Source: Clostridiales bacterium (GTDB taxonomy: Bacteria > Bacillota > Clostridia > Lachnospirales > CAG-274). Taken from it: 43,395 nt of DNA. Within the stretch, counting starts at the first letter, position 1. Each line of letters opens with the position of its first letter. The DNA lies in contig JAJQFU010000119.1 of NCBI GenBank assembly GCA_021200955.1, forward strand, positions 1 through 43,395. The letters run 5' to 3'. The position numbers and the translations under genes were made by a program. The notes under the pieces are model-generated. The model did no database searches. It worked only from the letters and a program-made list of their open reading frames with translations, and had not been told where the DNA came from. This document shows, one piece after another, positions 319 to 31,869 of this stretch.

Positions 319-1674
319 CTATATTTTATTACATTCCCGTTTTAAAAAGCAATATAACCCGTAAGCTCCGTCGGGGGTAAAGGCGTCGGCGGCGTTTTTA
401 AGGTTAAGAACCGCAAGGACCCTGTTCCGCACCGCAACAACAGGATAAAAGCAGCGTTTCGACTGCGGAATTTTATGCTCGGAATAGATTTTTTTAATCT
501 GCTGACTGCCGTTTTTAATTTTAAGCCTGTCGCCATCTCTTTTAGTTCTGACAATAAGGGGCAGGTCGGTTTCCCCAAGATTAAGTCTTCCTATTTCCTT
601 TTGGGGCATTCTATTTTTTGTTAAAACAAGCCTGATACCTGCTTCTTTTATGAAAATCTCCTTTTCGGGATAAAGCTCGTATGAATATTCAACGGTTTCT
701 TCGCTGAATTTGCCTATAACAAGGGCATCCCCCTCTTTTTTAGCCGTTATGCCCTCTATAAGGCTTATTTGTCTGCCGTTTTGACCCTCTGCAAGGTCTT
801 TAAGGCTATCAATATGCTTAAGCTCTATATCCTGCATTTTTTTGGTCAGTGGAAGGCTTGCAAGCCGCAGAACCCTGTTTTGAAGCACCTCATTTTCTGC
901 TGAAAGCCTATCACAGCTGAGACTGACTGAAGCTTTGTCTTTTTTTATAAGCGCACGCTCATAGGCTTTTTTTGCTTCCTCCTCCAAAAAATCGTTTTCC
1001 TTTCTTATTAAGCCCGATGTTTTAAAAAGGACATCAACAATGTTTGGGTTTATATCCTCTTCAATATAGGGCAGAAGCTTATGCCTTATTTTGTTTCTGA
1101 GATATTCAAGGCTTTGGTTTGTGCTGTCGGTTATATAAGGGGTGTCGCCTAAAAAGGCTTCAATTTCCGCTCGTGAAAGGCATAATAGAGGTCGTATAAT
1201 CTTATCACGCTTAGGTAAAATCCCCCCTAAGCCCTTAAGCCCCGCCCCTCTTATAAGCCTTTGAAGCATAGTCTCCGCATTGTCATTTTTATTATGCGCC
1301 AGTGCTATTCTGTTTGCCCCTGCCATTTCCGCCGTTTCGTAAAAAGCCTTATAGCGGTAGTTTCTGCCTGTTTCCTCTTCCGTAAACCCTTCAGCCTTTG
1401 AAAGTGAGGGTATGTCGTAGGAATAGACAAAAATCTCAACTCCCTCGGCTTTACAGAGTGCCTTTGAAAAATCTCTGTCTCTTAAAGCCTCTTCCCCTCT
1501 TATGTTGTGGTTTACGTGAACCGCCCAAAGCTTCAGGTCATACTCATCCTTAAGAGCAAGCAGAACCTTAAGCAGGCACACAGAGTCCGCTCCGCCGGAC
1601 AAGCCCAAAACAACCCTGTCGCCCTTTGTCAAAAGCCCATTTTCTTCAATAAATTTTTTTATTCTGTTAAGCAT
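319..1674 (-). CDS. tilS: tRNA(Ile)-lysidine synthetase TilS
   Basis: TilS uses ATP and lysine to convert C34 of tRNA-Ile(CAU) to lysidine, switching it from AUG to AUA decoding; it is cytosolic and usually essential. The 451-residue protein has the N-type PP-loop signature SGGADS at residues 26-31, the AVHVNHNIRG segment, and the HNKNDNAETMLQRLIRGAGLKGL region of the family. A C-terminal TilS domain lies at roughly residues 380-440. An in-frame TTG lies six bases upstream (1680), but a GGGCGG stretch is spaced correctly only for the ATG at 1674. It follows spoIIE by 60 bases on the same strand, the spoIIE-tilS order common in Clostridia, and is probably co-transcribed with it. Confidence 0.95.
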   Translation of the reverse strand: MLNRIKKFIEENGLLTKGDRVVLGLSGGADSVCLLKVLLALKDEYDLKLWAVHVNHNIRGEEALRDRDFSKALCKAEGVEIFVYSYDIPSLSKAEGFTEEETGRNYRYKAFYETAEMAGANRIALAHNKNDNAETMLQRLIRGAGLKGLGGILPKRDKIIRPLLCLSRAEIEAFLGDTPYITDSTNQSLEYLRNKIRHKLLPYIEEDINPNIVDVLFKTSGLIRKENDFLEEEAKKAYERALIKKDKASVSLSCDRLSAENEVLQNRVLRLASLPLTKKMQDIELKHIDSLKDLAEGQNGRQISLIEGITAKKEGDALVIGKFSEETVEYSYELYPEKEIFIKEAGIRLVLTKNRMPQKEIGRLNLGETDLPLIVRTKRDGDRLKIKNGSQQIKKIYSEHKIPQSKRCFYPVVAVRNRVLAVLNLKNAADAFTPDGAYGLYCFLKRECNKI

Positions 1675-23337: not shown

Positions 23338-25308
23338 TTACTTAGAAACAGAAATATTTTTGATGTAGCTTAAAATTACATCTGCTGCGGCTTCCGAGCC
23401 TATTGAGCTGTCTATACAAAGCTCATAATCATGAGGTGAACCCCAGCTTCTGCCGGAAATGCTCTTATAATAGGCTGATCTTGCGGAGTCGGAACGGCGG
23501 ACATTCTGCTTTCCCTGTTCCTTAGTGTCTCCGTAAATTTCCATAACCTTGTTAATTTTATATTCCTCAGGAGCATAAATAAACACACGAATTACGTTCT
23601 TATATTTTCTCAAAACATAGTCGGCGGCTCTGCCTACGATTACACATGAACCCTTATCCGCAATAAGACGGATTGCCTTATCCTGTGCGGAAACTGCTCT
23701 CTGAACTGCGTTTGTGCTTAAGTAAAGCTCCTTCATTACCGCATTTTCGTTTGAGTTAATGCCGGAAATAAATTCTTTGGAAAGACCGCTTTCCTTAGCC
23801 GCAAGGGCAACCATTTCCTTATAATAGCAGTGTACTCCCAGCTTTTCAGCCACAAGCTGACCGATACGCTTTCCTCCTGAGCCATGCTCTCTTGAAATAG
23901 TAACAATAACGCCTTCCTTTGAGGGGTAAAGAACGCTTTCCTCTGTTTCTCCCTTCTCCTGCTGTTTAAGCTGCTTCCAAAGGCGAACCATAACCCCTGT
24001 TGTAATAACTATGGCAATTAAGTCTGCAAGAGGCTCTGCCAAAAAAATGCCTGTTACGCCTAAGGCAATAGGCAGAATAAGTGAAAATACTACCAAAAGT
24101 GCGTCACGGAGTATTGAAAGAGGTGCAGCAGCTTTGGCATGACCTATTGACTGTAAGAATATAGCGCATACCTTTTGGAGACAGGTGAAAACAATAAGGG
24201 AAAGGTATATACGCATACACAAAATAGCAAACTGTGTATAAAGCTCGCTGTCTGCACCGAACATACGGATAAATATGCCGGGAACAGCTTCAAAGAGAAC
24301 CGTACAGACAATACAAACGATGGCTGTCCACTTAATTATAAGCTTCAAAAGCTCTCTGACACGCTGATAGTTTTCAGCGCCGTAGTTATAGCCCGCAATA
24401 GGCTGAGCTCCTGCGGCAATACCTATGGCAATGTTAAGAACGATTTGGAAAAGCTTCATTATAACTACGAATGCCGCAAGAGGTATGTCGGCTCCGTAAA
24501 TGGATTTTGCACCGTAGCTTACAAGCAAGACGTTATTTACTACAGTAATAACAACTATTGAAAACTGTGTTAAAAAGCTTGAAACACCCAAGGACGAAAT
24601 TCTCTTAAGCTGAGATCCATCGGGAACAAGGCTTTTAAGGGAAAACTTGAAGGTTTTGCTTCTCAAAAGATATGCTGCACAGATTAAGAAGCTTACAAAC
24701 TGACCTACGATTGTGGCATAAGCTGCACCCTTGATACCCATATCCAAAACGAAGATTGCAAGAGGGTCGCCTACGATATTAAGAAGTGCGCCAACAATCA
24801 TAGCACCCATAGCATATTTGGGGCTTCCGTCGGCACGAATAATAGAAGCCAATGTATTCTGAACAAGTGCAAAGGGCATCATTGCAAAGACAATATAGCC
24901 GTAATCTCTGGCAAGAGTAAAGTTTGCCTCTGTTGCGCCGATTGTCATAAGAAGTCTGTCACCTAAAATATAGCAAATGGCAATTATAACAATACCGGAA
25001 AGAAACGAGCCTAAGACGGCGTTTCCTACGGTTTTATGAATGTCCTCTGTGTTGTTTCTGCCCAAAGACACGCTTAAAGCAGCGGCAGCTCCGTCGCCGA
25101 AAAGCAGTGAAGCGCCCCAGCCTATAACTGTAATGGGGAAAATAACACCTGTGGCGGCGTTGCCCAAATAGCCTACGCCGTTGCCTACGAAAATTTGGTC
25201 AACAATATTGTAAAGACACGAAATAATGAGGGAACAGATACATGGTACGGCAAACTTTCTTAAAAGAGTCCCCAGACGCTCCGTTCCCAAATAATTGTTT
25301 TCCTGCAT
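23338..25308 (-). CDS. MATE family efflux transporter fused to a cytidylate-kinase-like domain
   Basis: Residues 1 to ~450 of this 656-residue protein are a MATE antiporter with 12 predicted membrane segments (opening TLLRKFAVPCICSLIISCLYN; IVDQIFVGN; GYNYGAENYQR). MATE proteins export drugs or metabolites using Na+ or H+ gradients. From residue ~466 a soluble domain begins VIVTISREHGSGGKRI, the altered P-loop of the Cytidylate_kin_2 family, with IVGRAADYVL and later Arg-rich RRSDSARSAYY. The two parts are in one uninterrupted frame. The ATG at 25308 is chosen because AGGAGG lies nine bases upstream; 13 upstream codons lack support. The kinase-like domain would lie in the cytosol. Its substrate is unknown; it may sense or modify a nucleotide or a drug. 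Confidence 0.88.
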   Translation of the reverse strand: MQENNYLGTERLGTLLRKFAVPCICSLIISCLYNIVDQIFVGNGVGYLGNAATGVIFPITVIGWGASLLFGDGAAAALSVSLGRNNTEDIHKTVGNAVLGSFLSGIVIIAICYILGDRLLMTIGATEANFTLARDYGYIVFAMMPFALVQNTLASIIRADGSPKYAMGAMIVGALLNIVGDPLAIFVLDMGIKGAAYATIVGQFVSFLICAAYLLRSKTFKFSLKSLVPDGSQLKRISSLGVSSFLTQFSIVVITVVNNVLLVSYGAKSIYGADIPLAAFVVIMKLFQIVLNIAIGIAAGAQPIAGYNYGAENYQRVRELLKLIIKWTAIVCIVCTVLFEAVPGIFIRMFGADSELYTQFAILCMRIYLSLIVFTCLQKVCAIFLQSIGHAKAAAPLSILRDALLVVFSLILPIALGVTGIFLAEPLADLIAIVITTGVMVRLWKQLKQQEKGETEESVLYPSKEGVIVTISREHGSGGKRIGQLVAEKLGVHCYYKEMVALAAKESGLSKEFISGINSNENAVMKELYLSTNAVQRAVSAQDKAIRLIADKGSCVIVGRAADYVLRKYKNVIRVFIYAPEEYKINKVMEIYGDTKEQGKQNVRRSDSARSAYYKSISGRSWGSPHDYELCIDSSIGSEAAADVILSYIKNISVSK

Positions 25309-25334
25309 AAATAATCCTCCTGTTTTTTGAGAAC

Positions 25335-25405
25335 AAAAAAACGACACCTATATGTAAGCTTTGTGCCGTAATCAGATTTACACGCAAAGCGCCACATGTG
25401 TCGTT
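25335..25405 (-). terminator. intrinsic terminator/attenuator in the MATE-kinase leader
   Basis: The minus-strand RNA forms a rod: outer arms AACGACAC/GTGTCGTT (8 bp), middle GCTTTG/CAAAGC, inner GTAA/TTAC, followed at once by seven Ts. It lies after the promoter and ends about 25 bases before the start codon, leaving only the ribosome binding site. That is the position of a transcription attenuator or riboswitch expression platform, not of an end-of-gene terminator. No known riboswitch class was recognised. Confidence 0.75.
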
Positions 25406-25428
25406 AATGTTCTATAAATATTTTTAAT

Positions 25429-25449
25429 AATGATATAAATAATATCATT
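25429..25449. repeat. palindrome over the MATE-kinase promoter (candidate operator)
   Basis: Perfect 8-bp arms AATGATAT and ATATCATT surround a five-base centre AAATA. The palindrome covers the whole -10 element and the expected start site, so a bound dimer (TetR- or MarR-like) would block transcription. No regulator gene is adjacent. Plain AT-rich coincidence is possible. Confidence 0.5.
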
Positions 25450-25467
25450 AAAATTAAAAAATGTCAA
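25439..25467 (-). promoter_or_regulatory. promoter of the MATE-kinase gene
   Basis: On the minus strand TTGACA (25462-25467) and TATTAT (25439-25444) are exactly 17 bases apart. Transcription would start near 25432 and run through a leader of about 125 bases containing the attenuator. Confidence 0.85.
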
Positions 25468-25563: not shown

Positions 25564-26784
25564 TTATTTCGCTTTTCTTAAAATATCCATAGGCTTAAGA
25601 GGTTTTTCAACCTTTATCTTTAAAAGCTCCTGAGCATGAGGTGCACTTTCCCGGCTGTTTCCCTCAAGGTCATAAATTTCGTCTAAGGTCTGAGAGAAAT
25701 TTTCTTCCCCTGCTCTTAAAAACTCTATTATGTCTCCCTTGAAAAATCTGTTTCTCTGCTCAATAAGGGCAAAGCCCGTTTTGGGGTCATATTCCTTAAC
25801 AAGCCCCACAAAATCATAGGTTTTAATGTATGCGGAATCTGTGTAGACCTGTGACTCTGCTGTGGGGTTTCCGAAAAAGAAGCCTGTTGTAAAACCTCGG
25901 TAGCTTGCCTTTTTAAGCTCGCTCAAATAATATTCTTTCTTGCTTTCATAAAACTTTGGGTCTTTGAAATAATCGTCCAAGGCTTCACGATAGGCTTTCA
26001 CAGTAACAGCCGCATAATAGGCTGTCTTAATTCTGCCCTCGATTTTAAGGCTTGAAACGCCGCTTTCAACCAGTTCCGGAATATGCTCAATCATACATAA
26101 ATCCTTTGAGTTAAAAATATATGTTCCTCTGCTGTCCTCTTCTACGGGAAGATACTCCCCTTCTCTTGTGGCTTCGGTTATATAATATTTCCAACGGCAT
26201 GGGTGTGTGCATGCCCCTCTGTTTCCGTCTCTGCCCGTAAAATAGGCTGAAAGGAGACATCTGCCCGAATACGAAATACACATTGCCCCATGTACGAAAA
26301 TTTCCGTTTCAATATCCGTTTTTTCACAGACATCCTTTATCTCTTTTAATGACAGCTCTCTTGCAAGAACAATTCGGCTTGCGCCTAAGCTCTTCCAAAA
26401 TTCAGCAGTCATATAGTTGGTATTGTTTGCCTGAGTGCTTATGTGAATCTCCAAAGAAGGTGCTGCGGCTCTTGCGACGGAGAATACACCGGGGTCTGAA
26501 ACCAAAACGGCGTCAGCCCCCATAGCTTCAACTGTCTTGAAATATTCGCCCATTGCGTCCACATCGGCATTTCTGGCAAAAATGTTTGCGGTTATATAAC
26601 ACTTAACCCCTCTTTCGTGGGCATAGCGTATGCCTTCCGCCATATCCTCATAAGAAAAGTTCTTAGCCTTAGCCCTGAGACTATAGCTTTCTCCTCCCAT
26701 ATATACTGCGTCTGCACCGTAGTTTACGGCGATTTTAAGCTTTTCCAAATCCCCCGCCGGGGCTAAAATTTCAGGTTTTTTCAT
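25564..26784 (-). CDS. trhP: peptidase U32 family protein TrhP (tRNA U34 hydroxylation)
   Basis: TrhP proteins (B. subtilis YrrN/YrrO, E. coli YegQ) make 5-hydroxyuridine at the wobble position of tRNAs in a prephenate-dependent reaction. The 406-residue protein starts with the family signature PEILAPAGDLEKLK. It has the cysteine set C169, C176, C192 and C196 (GAMCISYSGRC...ACTHPC) expected to hold an Fe-S cluster, and a C-terminal beta domain. It directly follows trmR and mltG, the same order as yrrL-yrrM-yrrN/O in B. subtilis. Despite the family name no peptidase activity is implied. Only one U32 gene is present here, while B. subtilis has two. Confidence 0.88.
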   Translation of the reverse strand: MKKPEILAPAGDLEKLKIAVNYGADAVYMGGESYSLRAKAKNFSYEDMAEGIRYAHERGVKCYITANIFARNADVDAMGEYFKTVEAMGADAVLVSDPGVFSVARAAAPSLEIHISTQANNTNYMTAEFWKSLGASRIVLARELSLKEIKDVCEKTDIETEIFVHGAMCISYSGRCLLSAYFTGRDGNRGACTHPCRWKYYITEATREGEYLPVEEDSRGTYIFNSKDLCMIEHIPELVESGVSSLKIEGRIKTAYYAAVTVKAYREALDDYFKDPKFYESKKEYYLSELKKASYRGFTTGFFFGNPTAESQVYTDSAYIKTYDFVGLVKEYDPKTGFALIEQRNRFFKGDIIEFLRAGEENFSQTLDEIYDLEGNSRESAPHAQELLKIKVEKPLKPMDILRKAK

Positions 26785-29373: not shown

Positions 29374-30174
29374 TCACATCCCGAAAAATCTTAAAACAGC
29401 AATAATTAAGGCAAACACAGCTCCCAAGCACATAACTGAATAATCTTTTCTTTCAAAAACAAGTTTTCTGTAGCGGGTTCTGCCAATGTCCCCTCTGTAG
29501 CACCTTGCTTCCATAGCCACTGCCAAATTGTCAGCGGTTCTGAAAGCCGAAACAAAAAGAGGTATCAAAAGAGGAATCATAGCCTTAGCCTTATCCATAA
29601 AGCTGCCCTCGTCAAAGCTCGCCCCTCTCGACATTTGAGCAAGCTTTATTTTTTCAAGCTCGTCAAAAATCGTAGGAATAAACCTTAAAGCAATAGTTAT
29701 CATCATAGCTATTTCGTGTGCCGGAAGCCCCACCCTTTTAAAGGGCTTAAGAAAGCTTTCAATAGCTTCAGCCAAAGCAAGATAGGTTGTTGTCAGAGTT
29801 AAAACCGACGACATTATTATAAGTATGCAGAGACGAAGAAAGGTTCGCAGTGCGGTAATTAAGCCCTCGTCGGTTATTGTTATAAAGCCGAATTTTAAAA
29901 GCACTGATCCGTCTTTGGTGAAAAAAAGATTTATAACAACAGTGAAAATTATCAAAAACATAACTCCCCTAAGCCCTTTTAAAAGCAGCCTAAAGGGCAC
30001 TTTTGAAAGCTTAAGGGCAAGGGCGAGAACCGACACCGCCAAACACCAGTTTAAGGGTGAACGGCACATAAAAAGTCCTATTACATATAAAAACAAAAAT
30101 ATAACCTTTCCTCTTGGGTCAAGACTGTGAACAAATGACCTTGAGGGATAATATTGACCTATAGTTATATACAT
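29374..30174 (-). CDS. ecfT: energy-coupling factor transporter transmembrane protein EcfT
   Basis: EcfT is the membrane scaffold of group II ECF transporters; it couples the ATPases to exchangeable S components for vitamins and similar substrates. The 266-residue protein opens with SRSFVHSLDPRGKVIF, has about five to six membrane segments, and carries the coupling motifs LAQMSRGASF and AMEARCYRGD that contact the two ATPases. It lies 15 bases after the ATPase gene. No S component is encoded nearby, as expected for the shared group II module. Confidence 0.95.
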   Translation of the reverse strand: MYITIGQYYPSRSFVHSLDPRGKVIFLFLYVIGLFMCRSPLNWCLAVSVLALALKLSKVPFRLLLKGLRGVMFLIIFTVVINLFFTKDGSVLLKFGFITITDEGLITALRTFLRLCILIIMSSVLTLTTTYLALAEAIESFLKPFKRVGLPAHEIAMMITIALRFIPTIFDELEKIKLAQMSRGASFDEGSFMDKAKAMIPLLIPLFVSAFRTADNLAVAMEARCYRGDIGRTRYRKLVFERKDYSVMCLGAVFALIIAVLRFFGM

Positions 30175-30189
30175 AATTTCTGCCGCCTG

Positions 30190-31869
30190 TTAAATATTTT
30201 CAAGAATTAATTTTGCCGCCTGTTTGGGTGAAAAACAGCCTTTGGGAAGAGTTATTCCCGGCTTTTCGAGTTCGTCCTTTAAAAGGCTGATTTTGGGTCT
30301 GTCAAGTCCTGCCGAACGCAGACTTTCACCGTCGTTAAAGATTTCAGAGGGAAGCCCCTTTTTAAGAACCGCCCCGTCCTTAAGTATAACCGCATAGTCC
30401 GAAAGCTCCGCTGCGTCCTCCATACTGTGGCTCACCATAATGACGGTTACACCTGTTTTTTGTATGTTTTTAACTGTTTTTAAAATTTCACGTCTACCCT
30501 TGGGGTCAAGCCCGGCAGCAGGCTCATCGAGAACCAGCACCTCAGGCTCCATAACCAAAATTCCGGCAAGGGCAGCTCTCTTTTTTTCTCCGCCCGAAAG
30601 CTCAAAGGGCGGTTTATCGGCTTTGTCAAGGGGAAACGCCGCAAGTGAAAGAGCCTTAAGAGCCCTGTTTTTGGCTTCTTCCTCAGAAAGTCCCATATTC
30701 AGTGCGCCGAACATAACGTCTTTTAAGACAGTTTCCTCAAAAAGCTGATAGTCGGGGTTTTGAAAAACCACGCCCACCTTAAAGCGAATATCCTTAACCT
30801 GTGAAATATTCTTGCCCTTATATAGGATTTCACCCTTTTTTGGCTTATAAAGTCCGTTTAGACAGCGGAGAAGAGTGCTTTTTCCCGAACCCGTATGACC
30901 TATTACAGAGGTAAAGCTGCCTTTGGAGACGCCGAAGCTGACGGATGTCAGGGCGTTTTCCTCTGTTCCTTCATATTTATAGGAAAGATCCTTTACCTCG
31001 ATAACAGCCTCTTTTTCGTTTATTGTTTTTTCAGTTTCTTCATTAATATGAAGGCTTCCGTATTTTTCGAAAATACGCCTTGCAAGCTCCTTTTCCGATA
31101 TGACCTCACTTTTTAAGCCCAAAAGTCTTTCCATATAGACAGACAAAGGCTCTTCAAGTCCGCAGCTTTTAAGAAGCTCTCCTTGCTTCAAAACCTCTTT
31201 TGCTTCTCCCTGAGCCGCATTTTTGCCCTCGGAAATTATATAAACATAGTCGCAAAGGGCTGCTTCTTCTATAAAATGGGTAATCATAATAACGGTTATG
31301 CCGTAGTCACGCTTAAGCTTAAACACAGCGTCAAGAACTGCCTTTCGCCCTGACGGGTCAAGCATTGAGGTGGCTTCGTCCAAAATTATACATTTGGGCT
31401 TCATTGCGAAAATTCCGGCAATAGCTATTTTCTGCTTCTGCCCTCCCGAAAGGTTTTGGGTTGAGTGCTTCAAAAACTCCGTCATACCCACAACCCTTAA
31501 GGCTGATTTAATTCTGCCTTCCATTTCCGAGGGGTCAACCCCCAAATTTTCAAGTCCGAAGGCAATGTCCTCGTCAACAATGCTTGCTACGATTTGATTG
31601 TCGGGGTTTTGAAAAACCATTCCGCAGGTCTGCCTTATTTCCCAAAGGTCGTCCTCGGCGGTGTTTTTGCCGAAAACCCAAACCTCACCCTCTGAAGGGG
31701 TGTAAAGTCCGTTTAAAAGCTTGGCTAAGGTAGACTTTCCCGAACCGTTAGAGCCTAAAATACAGACTGCCTGACCCTCTTTTGCCTTAAAGCTTACGCC
31801 CTCTAAGGCTTTGTTGGGGCTGTCGGTGTTTGAGTTGTAAATATAAGCGGCATTAACGGCAGTAATCAT
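30190..31869 (-). CDS. fused ECF transporter ATPase EcfA1-EcfA2
   Basis: The two ABC ATPases of the ECF module, normally separate ecfA1 and ecfA2 genes, are here one 559-residue protein. The first half has Walker A GSNGSGKST (39-47), signature LSGGQ (140-144) and Walker B IILDEATSMLD. A linker lies at about residues 255-288. The second half has GHTGSGKST (324-332), LSGGE (424-428) and VLVLDEPAAGLD. All ATPase motifs look intact in both halves. The first half lacks the usual DEP after Walker B (it has DEA), the sort of difference seen between A1 and A2. It is followed by ecfT. The start at 31869 has no strong ribosome binding site visible. Confidence 0.93.
   Translation of the reverse strand: MITAVNAAYIYNSNTDSPNKALEGVSFKAKEGQAVCILGSNGSGKSTLAKLLNGLYTPSEGEVWVFGKNTAEDDLWEIRQTCGMVFQNPDNQIVASIVDEDIAFGLENLGVDPSEMEGRIKSALRVVGMTEFLKHSTQNLSGGQKQKIAIAGIFAMKPKCIILDEATSMLDPSGRKAVLDAVFKLKRDYGITVIMITHFIEEAALCDYVYIISEGKNAAQGEAKEVLKQGELLKSCGLEEPLSVYMERLLGLKSEVISEKELARRIFEKYGSLHINEETEKTINEKEAVIEVKDLSYKYEGTEENALTSVSFGVSKGSFTSVIGHTGSGKSTLLRCLNGLYKPKKGEILYKGKNISQVKDIRFKVGVVFQNPDYQLFEETVLKDVMFGALNMGLSEEEAKNRALKALSLAAFPLDKADKPPFELSGGEKKRAALAGILVMEPEVLVLDEPAAGLDPKGRREILKTVKNIQKTGVTVIMVSHSMEDAAELSDYAVILKDGAVLKKGLPSEIFNDGESLRSAGLDRPKISLLKDELEKPGITLPKGCFSPKQAAKLILENI

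Follow-up and report, generated by a model that had tools for sequence, protein, structure and literature searches.

Several described regulatory RNAs resemble the leader considered here. The guanidine-IV riboswitch (GGAM-1 or mepA motif) is made up of two consecutive hairpins linked by a pseudoknot and has no conserved ACG trimers (PMC7736828, PMC12186494); its conserved nucleotides lie inside a Rho-independent terminator, its targets include MATE genes and sugE, and it acts as an ON switch that prevents termination. The Gd4v motif (PMC9788692), an orphan, terminator-based motif of gut bacteria with MATE genes among its targets, assumes the guanidine-IV two-hairpin fold and mainly precedes genes for a transaminase and a GNAT enzyme. 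In the HMP-PP (thiS) riboswitch (PMC8632094) the binding site sits at the tip of the terminator stem and the ligand excludes the terminator. Leader-peptide attenuators such as those of vmlR and msrD likewise place a terminator before a resistance-type gene and need a translated leader peptide.

The element reported here lies in the leader of a gene for a MATE exporter with a kinase-like domain (MATE-kinase), in a 43,395-nucleotide stretch of DNA from a Clostridiales bacterium that was analysed as a whole (the window). Like guanidine-IV, it has conserved nucleotides inside a predicted Rho-independent terminator, MATE targets and an inferred ON direction; unlike guanidine-IV, it forms one nested hairpin with a helix, P2, inside it and an ACG in both of its conserved blocks. 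The sugE target was not noticed among 73 loci found with our covariance models, in which sugE was not specifically searched for. It shares with Gd4v its orphan status, its terminator, its occurrence in gut bacteria and its MATE targets but differs in fold and in having DUF2798-like and MFS genes among its targets, and it shares with the HMP-PP switch the placement of the binding site and the exclusion of the terminator by ligand (both inferred for our element) but is unrelated to it in sequence. Unlike the vmlR and msrD attenuators, it has no conserved leader peptide. By analogy, the element may work like the guanidine-IV, Gd4v and HMP-PP switches, but it is not filed with them. We propose, as an inference from sequence alone, that this leader class is best read as an orphan riboswitch controlling exporter-type genes through transcription termination.

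Comparison with 4227 Rfam 15 families, T-box and guanidine-II included, gave no match at the gathering score in the window, which upholds the claim of an earlier sequence-only reading that the hairpin matches no known riboswitch; the presence of guanidine-IV in Rfam was not established. In fourteen relatives, matches at the gathering score were confined to a NiCo riboswitch and a group II intron, away from or upstream of the element: the former, at 76 bits, follows the MATE gene in L024 (6342-6438, plus strand) and the latter just upstream of the leader in L009 (44-115, plus strand). The best sub-threshold match spanning the hairpin on the minus strand, 23S-methyl (17.7 bits against a cut-off of 50), was put down to chance given its E-value of 1.2 in the window and its absence from the lists for L024 and L118, and a mir-4012 match in L118 (22.9 bits against 80, E 0.011) was rejected as a chance hairpin match. 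No paper describing the element was found in the open-access literature searched (supplements, preprints and most subscription papers lay outside the search); it may stand unrecognised among the thousands of unnamed candidates of a human-microbiome set (PMC8040213).

The leader of the MATE-kinase gene

The leader lies on the minus strand, in the order promoter, hairpin, T7, AGGAGG and ATG:

25467-25462 (TTGACA) and 25444-25439 (TATTAT), minus strand: sigma-70-type promoter with a 17-nt spacer and a TG preceding the -10 (11 of 12 matches)
about 25405 to 25341, minus strand: three-tier hairpin built of P1, the inner stem GCTTTG/CAAAGC and a small stem at the apex
25341-25335, minus strand: terminator tail, a run of seven T (read from the sequence)
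25321-25316, minus strand: ribosome binding site AGGAGG (read from the sequence)
23338-25308, minus strand, ATG at 25308: regulated gene, a 656-aa MATE exporter with a C-terminal cytidylate-kinase-like domain (Pfam MatE 4.9e-31, Cytidylate_kin2 4.3e-44)

The RNA is inferred to start near 25432. Promoter scores of at least 9 of 12 recur in 86% of 93 homologous leaders, against 21% of letter-shuffled sequence, and the -10 in these leaders mostly ends 25-35 nt 5' of the conserved GACACA. The region 25440-25330 folds at -30.7 kcal/mol, as against -16.4 (sd 3.0) when shuffled; given that none of 200 dinucleotide shuffles folds as well (z -4.8), the hairpin exceeds chance. With its G+C-bearing stem followed by a U-run it has the form of an intrinsic terminator; a simple terminator scan, with a loop limit of 8, omitted it. 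The sequence-only reading had placed a terminator-type hairpin between a near-perfect promoter and the ribosome binding site, and this holds in both sequence and fold. It had further held that expression needs an antitermination event brought about by a ligand, a protein or a stalled ribosome. Regulated read-through and its agent are inferred here, not shown; the evidence favours a ligand, leaves room for a protein and makes a stalled ribosome very unlikely.

The open reading frame listing gives an alternative GTG start for the gene at 25347. The kinase-like domain is perhaps optional, as the match stops before it in several MATE-kinase relatives (e.g. L030, L034). A palindrome, TAATGATAT-N5-ATATCATTA (25428-25450, minus strand), lies over the -10 and the likely start site; it could possibly be an operator forming a second layer of control, and is only partly kept in L002 and L003.

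Architecture and covariation of the RNA element

The element runs from a near-invariant ACGACACAYG, which opens P1, through P2 and a second conserved block, GUAAAUCUGAUYACGG, to a variable stretch, the P1 3' strand and the U-run. In the window its parts are the following:

25332-25407, minus strand: conserved RNA element, covariance-model match (E 1e-17 with model R1, 6.4e-15 with model R2)
25408-25413, minus strand: P0 5' strand AGAACA, partner of 25330-25335 in the fold, beating permuted partners in 94 leaders
25330-25335, minus strand: P0 3' strand TGTTCT (fold and permutation over 94 leaders)
25398-25404, minus strand: P1 5' strand of the terminator stem, ACGACAC, also in the invariant core (fold and covariation)
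25341-25347, minus strand: P1 3' strand GTGTCGT (fold and covariation)
25382-25392, minus strand: P2 hairpin GCGC-TTT-GCGT, 4 bp, with four pairs that vary on both sides in relatives
25366-25381, minus strand: conserved core GTAAATCTGATTACGG (alignments and column counts)
25385-25390, minus strand: P2' 5' strand GCTTTG, alternative to P2 (lowest-energy fold; own versus permuted partners)
25358-25363, minus strand: P2' 3' strand CAAAGC (lowest-energy fold; own versus permuted partners)
25402-25403, minus strand: proposed pseudoknot contacts of C25403 and G25402 with G25367 and C25368 (covariation at the first pair)

R1 was built from an alignment of 35 leaders and R2 from 76, with the window's own sequence in both training sets. 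In an alignment of 99 leaders, 94.8% of the cells are paired and the covariation score is 0.324, against 0.194 for shuffled alignments (0/500). Seven pairs vary on both sides, among them all four of P2; three of these four have no unpaired cell, and the remaining one is unpaired in 17 of 97, where longer P2 stems shift the register. The P2 arms seen include GTGC/GCAC, GCGC/GCGC, GCAC/GTGC, GAGC/GCTC, TAGC/GCTA and GGGC/GCCC, and the helix is mostly 4-5 bp long (range 4-7 bp). The sequence-only reading would have been refuted by homologous leaders without conserved pairing, and that refutation failed. A conserved, structured 5' UTR RNA with covariation is one of the marks of a riboswitch, and this leader bears it.

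Several features of the samples qualify these values. The 99-leader alignment was fitted to the model, and is therefore biased towards the structure; it is nearly gapless around P2, and its rows were picked by model score from 99 chosen sources, with L116, L141 and hits listed as duplicates omitted. A separate set of 94 leaders was picked by a pattern requiring GACACA and most of the core, so that conservation is overstated there. Neither the covariation shuffles nor the pairing permutations (for P0, P2' and a second terminator described below) were corrected for relatedness.

Two further pairings are less secure. P0 would close the element across the U-run, and over the 94 leaders its own partners score -4.37 against -3.61 (sd 0.16) for permuted ones; the gain is smaller within gene classes and weak in the MATE class, where some permutations match the own value. 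The pseudoknot is a possibility only, resting on one covarying pair with few independent changes: C25403/G25367 is C-G in 89 of the 99 leaders, U-A in 4, U-G in 3 and unpaired in the 3 that break it (Fisher p 5e-5, uncorrected for kinship), and G25402/C25368, the second proposed pair, is invariant and thus shows no variation.

Some variants were observed in individual loci. A sub-type (L105, L109, L113, L114, L142) ends its core in ACAG, not ACGG; four of these five have AATGACAC or ATTGACAC as the 5' block, with the proposed pair kept. In L148 (1501-1579, plus strand), which has an MFS exporter gene downstream, the P1 strand is GAAACATG and its partner CATGTTTT, both sides being changed (GACACA to GAAACA). 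L176 (about 1501-1572, minus strand of the locus; model E 1e-6) has the core CCGTAAATCCGGTTACGG instead of GTAAATCTGATTACGG, which might reflect another ligand or chance.

This anatomy bears on whether the element is a diverged guanidine-IV or Gd4v riboswitch. In favour are the same regulatory logic and the partly shared gene family (MATE). Against it, the two-hairpin fold is not met, as there is no conserved hairpin 5' of P1 and the RNA starts only some 20-30 nt before P1; guanidine-IV is also without conserved ACG trimers, and the leader element has two, with few exceptions. We consider this identity very unlikely, although no sequence-level comparison was made.

It also bears on ribosome-stalling attenuation, in which translation of a short frame through the hairpin would control the terminator:

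25260-25397, minus strand: short frame MWRFACKSDYG..., judged non-functional (open reading frame listing; conservation in 94 leaders)

The frame is indeed present in the window, and in one frame the core most often translates as KSDY or KSDH (90 of 94 leaders). However, the ATG is found in only 74 of the 94 leaders, the position of the core relative to it is spread over all three frames (49, 13 and 12), 34 of the 74 frames stop at or before the core, at most 4 of 6 bases match AGGAGG ahead of the ATG in 73 of the 74, and the length and arms of P2 vary freely. Since no conserved translated upstream frame is thus seen in the 94 leaders, a stalled ribosome is very unlikely. The sequence-only reading had noted that the frame lacks a ribosome binding site, which held: the frame exists and no good site is in sight. 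A possible likeness to tet(M)-type leader peptides found no support, and a literature search gave nothing relevant.

Two exclusive pairings and a putative ON switch

P2 is absent from the lowest-energy fold, and imposing it carries an energy penalty above 0.05 kcal/mol in 87 of the 94 leaders (median 8). Its strands there pair instead with the downstream variable stretch to form P2', which lengthens the terminator. The own P2' partners outscore permuted ones both in MATE leaders (-8.83 versus -7.47, sd 0.26) and in DUF2798 leaders (-8.96 versus -6.11, sd 0.34). Given that P2 covaries and yet is missing from the lowest-energy fold, it must serve in another state; P2 and P2', being mutually exclusive, are predicted to constitute an expression platform.

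A second terminator with a T-rich tail occurs in ten loci (L004, L012, L017, L019, L020, L021, L028, L033, L143, L145), and its 5' arm can pair with the P1 3' strand at -9.8 to -13.4 kcal/mol. The four segments in these relatives are predicted to fit a classical antiterminator/terminator switch. The listing behind this count has 15 rows, in five of which (the window, L002, L022, L026, L030) a wrong hairpin was chosen, mostly in the coding region; the count of ten leaves these rows out, and the printed mean takes them in.

In the mechanism we propose, the RNA without ligand would adopt the long hairpin of P1 and P2', and the polymerase would halt at the U-run. Binding of a small toxic compound to the fold of P2 and the core would block P2', weaken the terminator and allow the exporter to be made; in relatives with a second hairpin, binding would free the P1 3' strand for the antiterminator. 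In both layouts the P1 5' strand or the P2 region would be kept out of the long hairpin, resulting in read-through, and this, together with its suitability for exporters, favours an ON switch. That the element is a conserved terminator-type regulatory RNA is in our view very likely, termination itself being predicted. Conservation, covariation, the alternative pairings, the link with particular genes and the place of the promoter are read from the sequences themselves. That it is a ligand-binding ON riboswitch is more tentative, with a probability of roughly 0.6, as termination, ligand, binding and direction are all inferred and there are no binding or transcription data.

The opposite direction, an OFF switch in which the ligand would stabilise P1 and the terminator so that expression drops, is supported by the compatibility of P1 with P2 and, nearly, with the pseudoknot. 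Against it, P2' excludes P2, and P2' is the very pairing that lengthens the terminator; exporters, moreover, are usually induced by their own substrates. An OFF switch thus appears unlikely. The sequence does not settle the matter, as P1 and the proposed pseudoknot clash at one pair only, and the ON direction remains an inference.

Control of the terminator may instead lie with a protein that recognises the core or P2 in place of a small molecule, as in protein-dependent antitermination; we hold this to be less likely. In its favour, a protein could make equally good use of a conserved hairpin and its conserved single-stranded core, and the lowest-energy fold differs from the covarying one. 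Against this, no regulator gene accompanies the element in the loci read, where the downstream genes code for membrane proteins, and the core, at 16 bases plus GACACA and with a P2 that varies from 4 to 7 bp, exceeds typical protein sites, the latter point being a matter of judgement only.

Genes and genomes associated with the element

A protein search with the MATE-kinase yielded 80 loci. The same leader is present in 33 of the 34 MATE-kinase loci L002-L035, the contig of the exception (L015) starting just upstream of its gene; these loci were found via the MATE protein and are uninformative on gene association. The covariance models, which search by the RNA, found 73 loci (L097-L169); the window is among them (L102), as are two near copies (L099, L100) and leaders that closely resemble those used in training. 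By tblastn, these precede DUF2798-like genes (52), MATE genes (9), MFS genes (4) or none of these (6), and two lack the core motif. Thus 65 of the 73 precede one of three unrelated membrane-protein families; such a consistent position upstream of several non-homologous genes of related role is a further mark of a riboswitch, though the role of the DUF2798-like genes is not known. The six without such a gene comprise one at a contig end (L106), one before an unrelated frame (L149) and four others (L112, L116, L166, L167). Of five further loci, L177-L179 stand before DUF2798-like genes, and the other two (L176, L180) are without the core. We judge L115, L165 and L180 (no core) and L176 (variant) to be false or uncertain hits; L115 and L180 resemble plain terminators.

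The sequence-only reading had suggested that a covariance model be searched for before other transporter genes, and the element does precede other membrane-transporter genes. Its finding holds and is larger than stated, the element being an uncatalogued terminator-type RNA of exporter-like genes. The same recurrence speaks against an unregulated, plain terminator of the upstream gene. That gene is indeed on the same strand and ends at 25564, but the promoter lies between it and the hairpin, and the copies of the element that stand before unrelated genes keep a conserved apical core for which a plain terminator has no use; this explanation is all but excluded.

At E 0.001, R1 matched 20 of the 295 genomes searched in the order and 31 of the 391 searched in the class; R2 matched 8 of 398 in the phylum and 23/95, 4/43, 5/73, 2/67 and 8/58 genomes of groups drawn around hits. 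The genome samples overlap, and all model searches were confined to the window's own phylum. The element occurs in several families within Clostridia and related classes, with a patchy distribution resembling that of a gene often gained and lost. A repeat or mobile element was considered and rejected, since the window's genome has a single copy and the genomes matched in the order and class searches nearly always have just one. A search of plasmids, phages and viral contigs gave nothing convincing.

In the window's genus, a DNA search found three copies of the leader that do not stand in front of this MATE gene; a small membrane protein is encoded behind them instead. This protein is related to DUF2798 (Pfam E 1.3e-5 for one, above the cut-off, and 2.5e-4 for another, just below it); its structure model is good (mean pLDDT 91), and a structure search found no solved relative for it (best E 2.0). 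The MFS proteins tested are nearest to the LmrB and EmrB models, with scores under the cut-offs of those models. Across nine genomes of the genus, the RNA stands with a close MATE-kinase gene in three (G000, G001, G005) and with a DUF2798-like gene in three (G002, G003, G008), and never precedes both within one genome; in the other three (G004, G006, G007) neither the RNA nor a close copy of either gene was found. Distant copies occur of both genes in G004 and of the MATE-kinase in G002. Thus the two unrelated genes, standing behind the same RNA in different genomes, seem to replace each other.

The occurrence of the same RNA before three unrelated kinds of membrane protein suggests that it probably senses an unknown toxic compound. 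On a bolder reading, which we regard as only slightly more likely right than wrong, the element would be a new riboswitch class, about 75 nt long, whose aptamer and terminator coincide in one nested hairpin. It would sense a toxic compound, as yet unrecognised, that Clostridia encounter, many of these being gut bacteria, and it would mark MATE-kinase, LmrB-like MFS and DUF2798-like proteins as alternative routes for exporting this compound. An orphan switch common to three unrelated membrane-protein families would suggest that these share a substrate and give the DUF2798-like family a functional lead, and the compound could be found by screening a simple reporter. If true, this would be another instance of a poorly understood arrangement, that of a binding site housed in the terminator stem itself.

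Elsewhere in the window, a 559-aa frame (30190-31869, minus strand) appears by eye to contain the two ABC-ATPase halves of an ECF-type transporter, and an EcfT-like gene (29374-30174) adjoins it.
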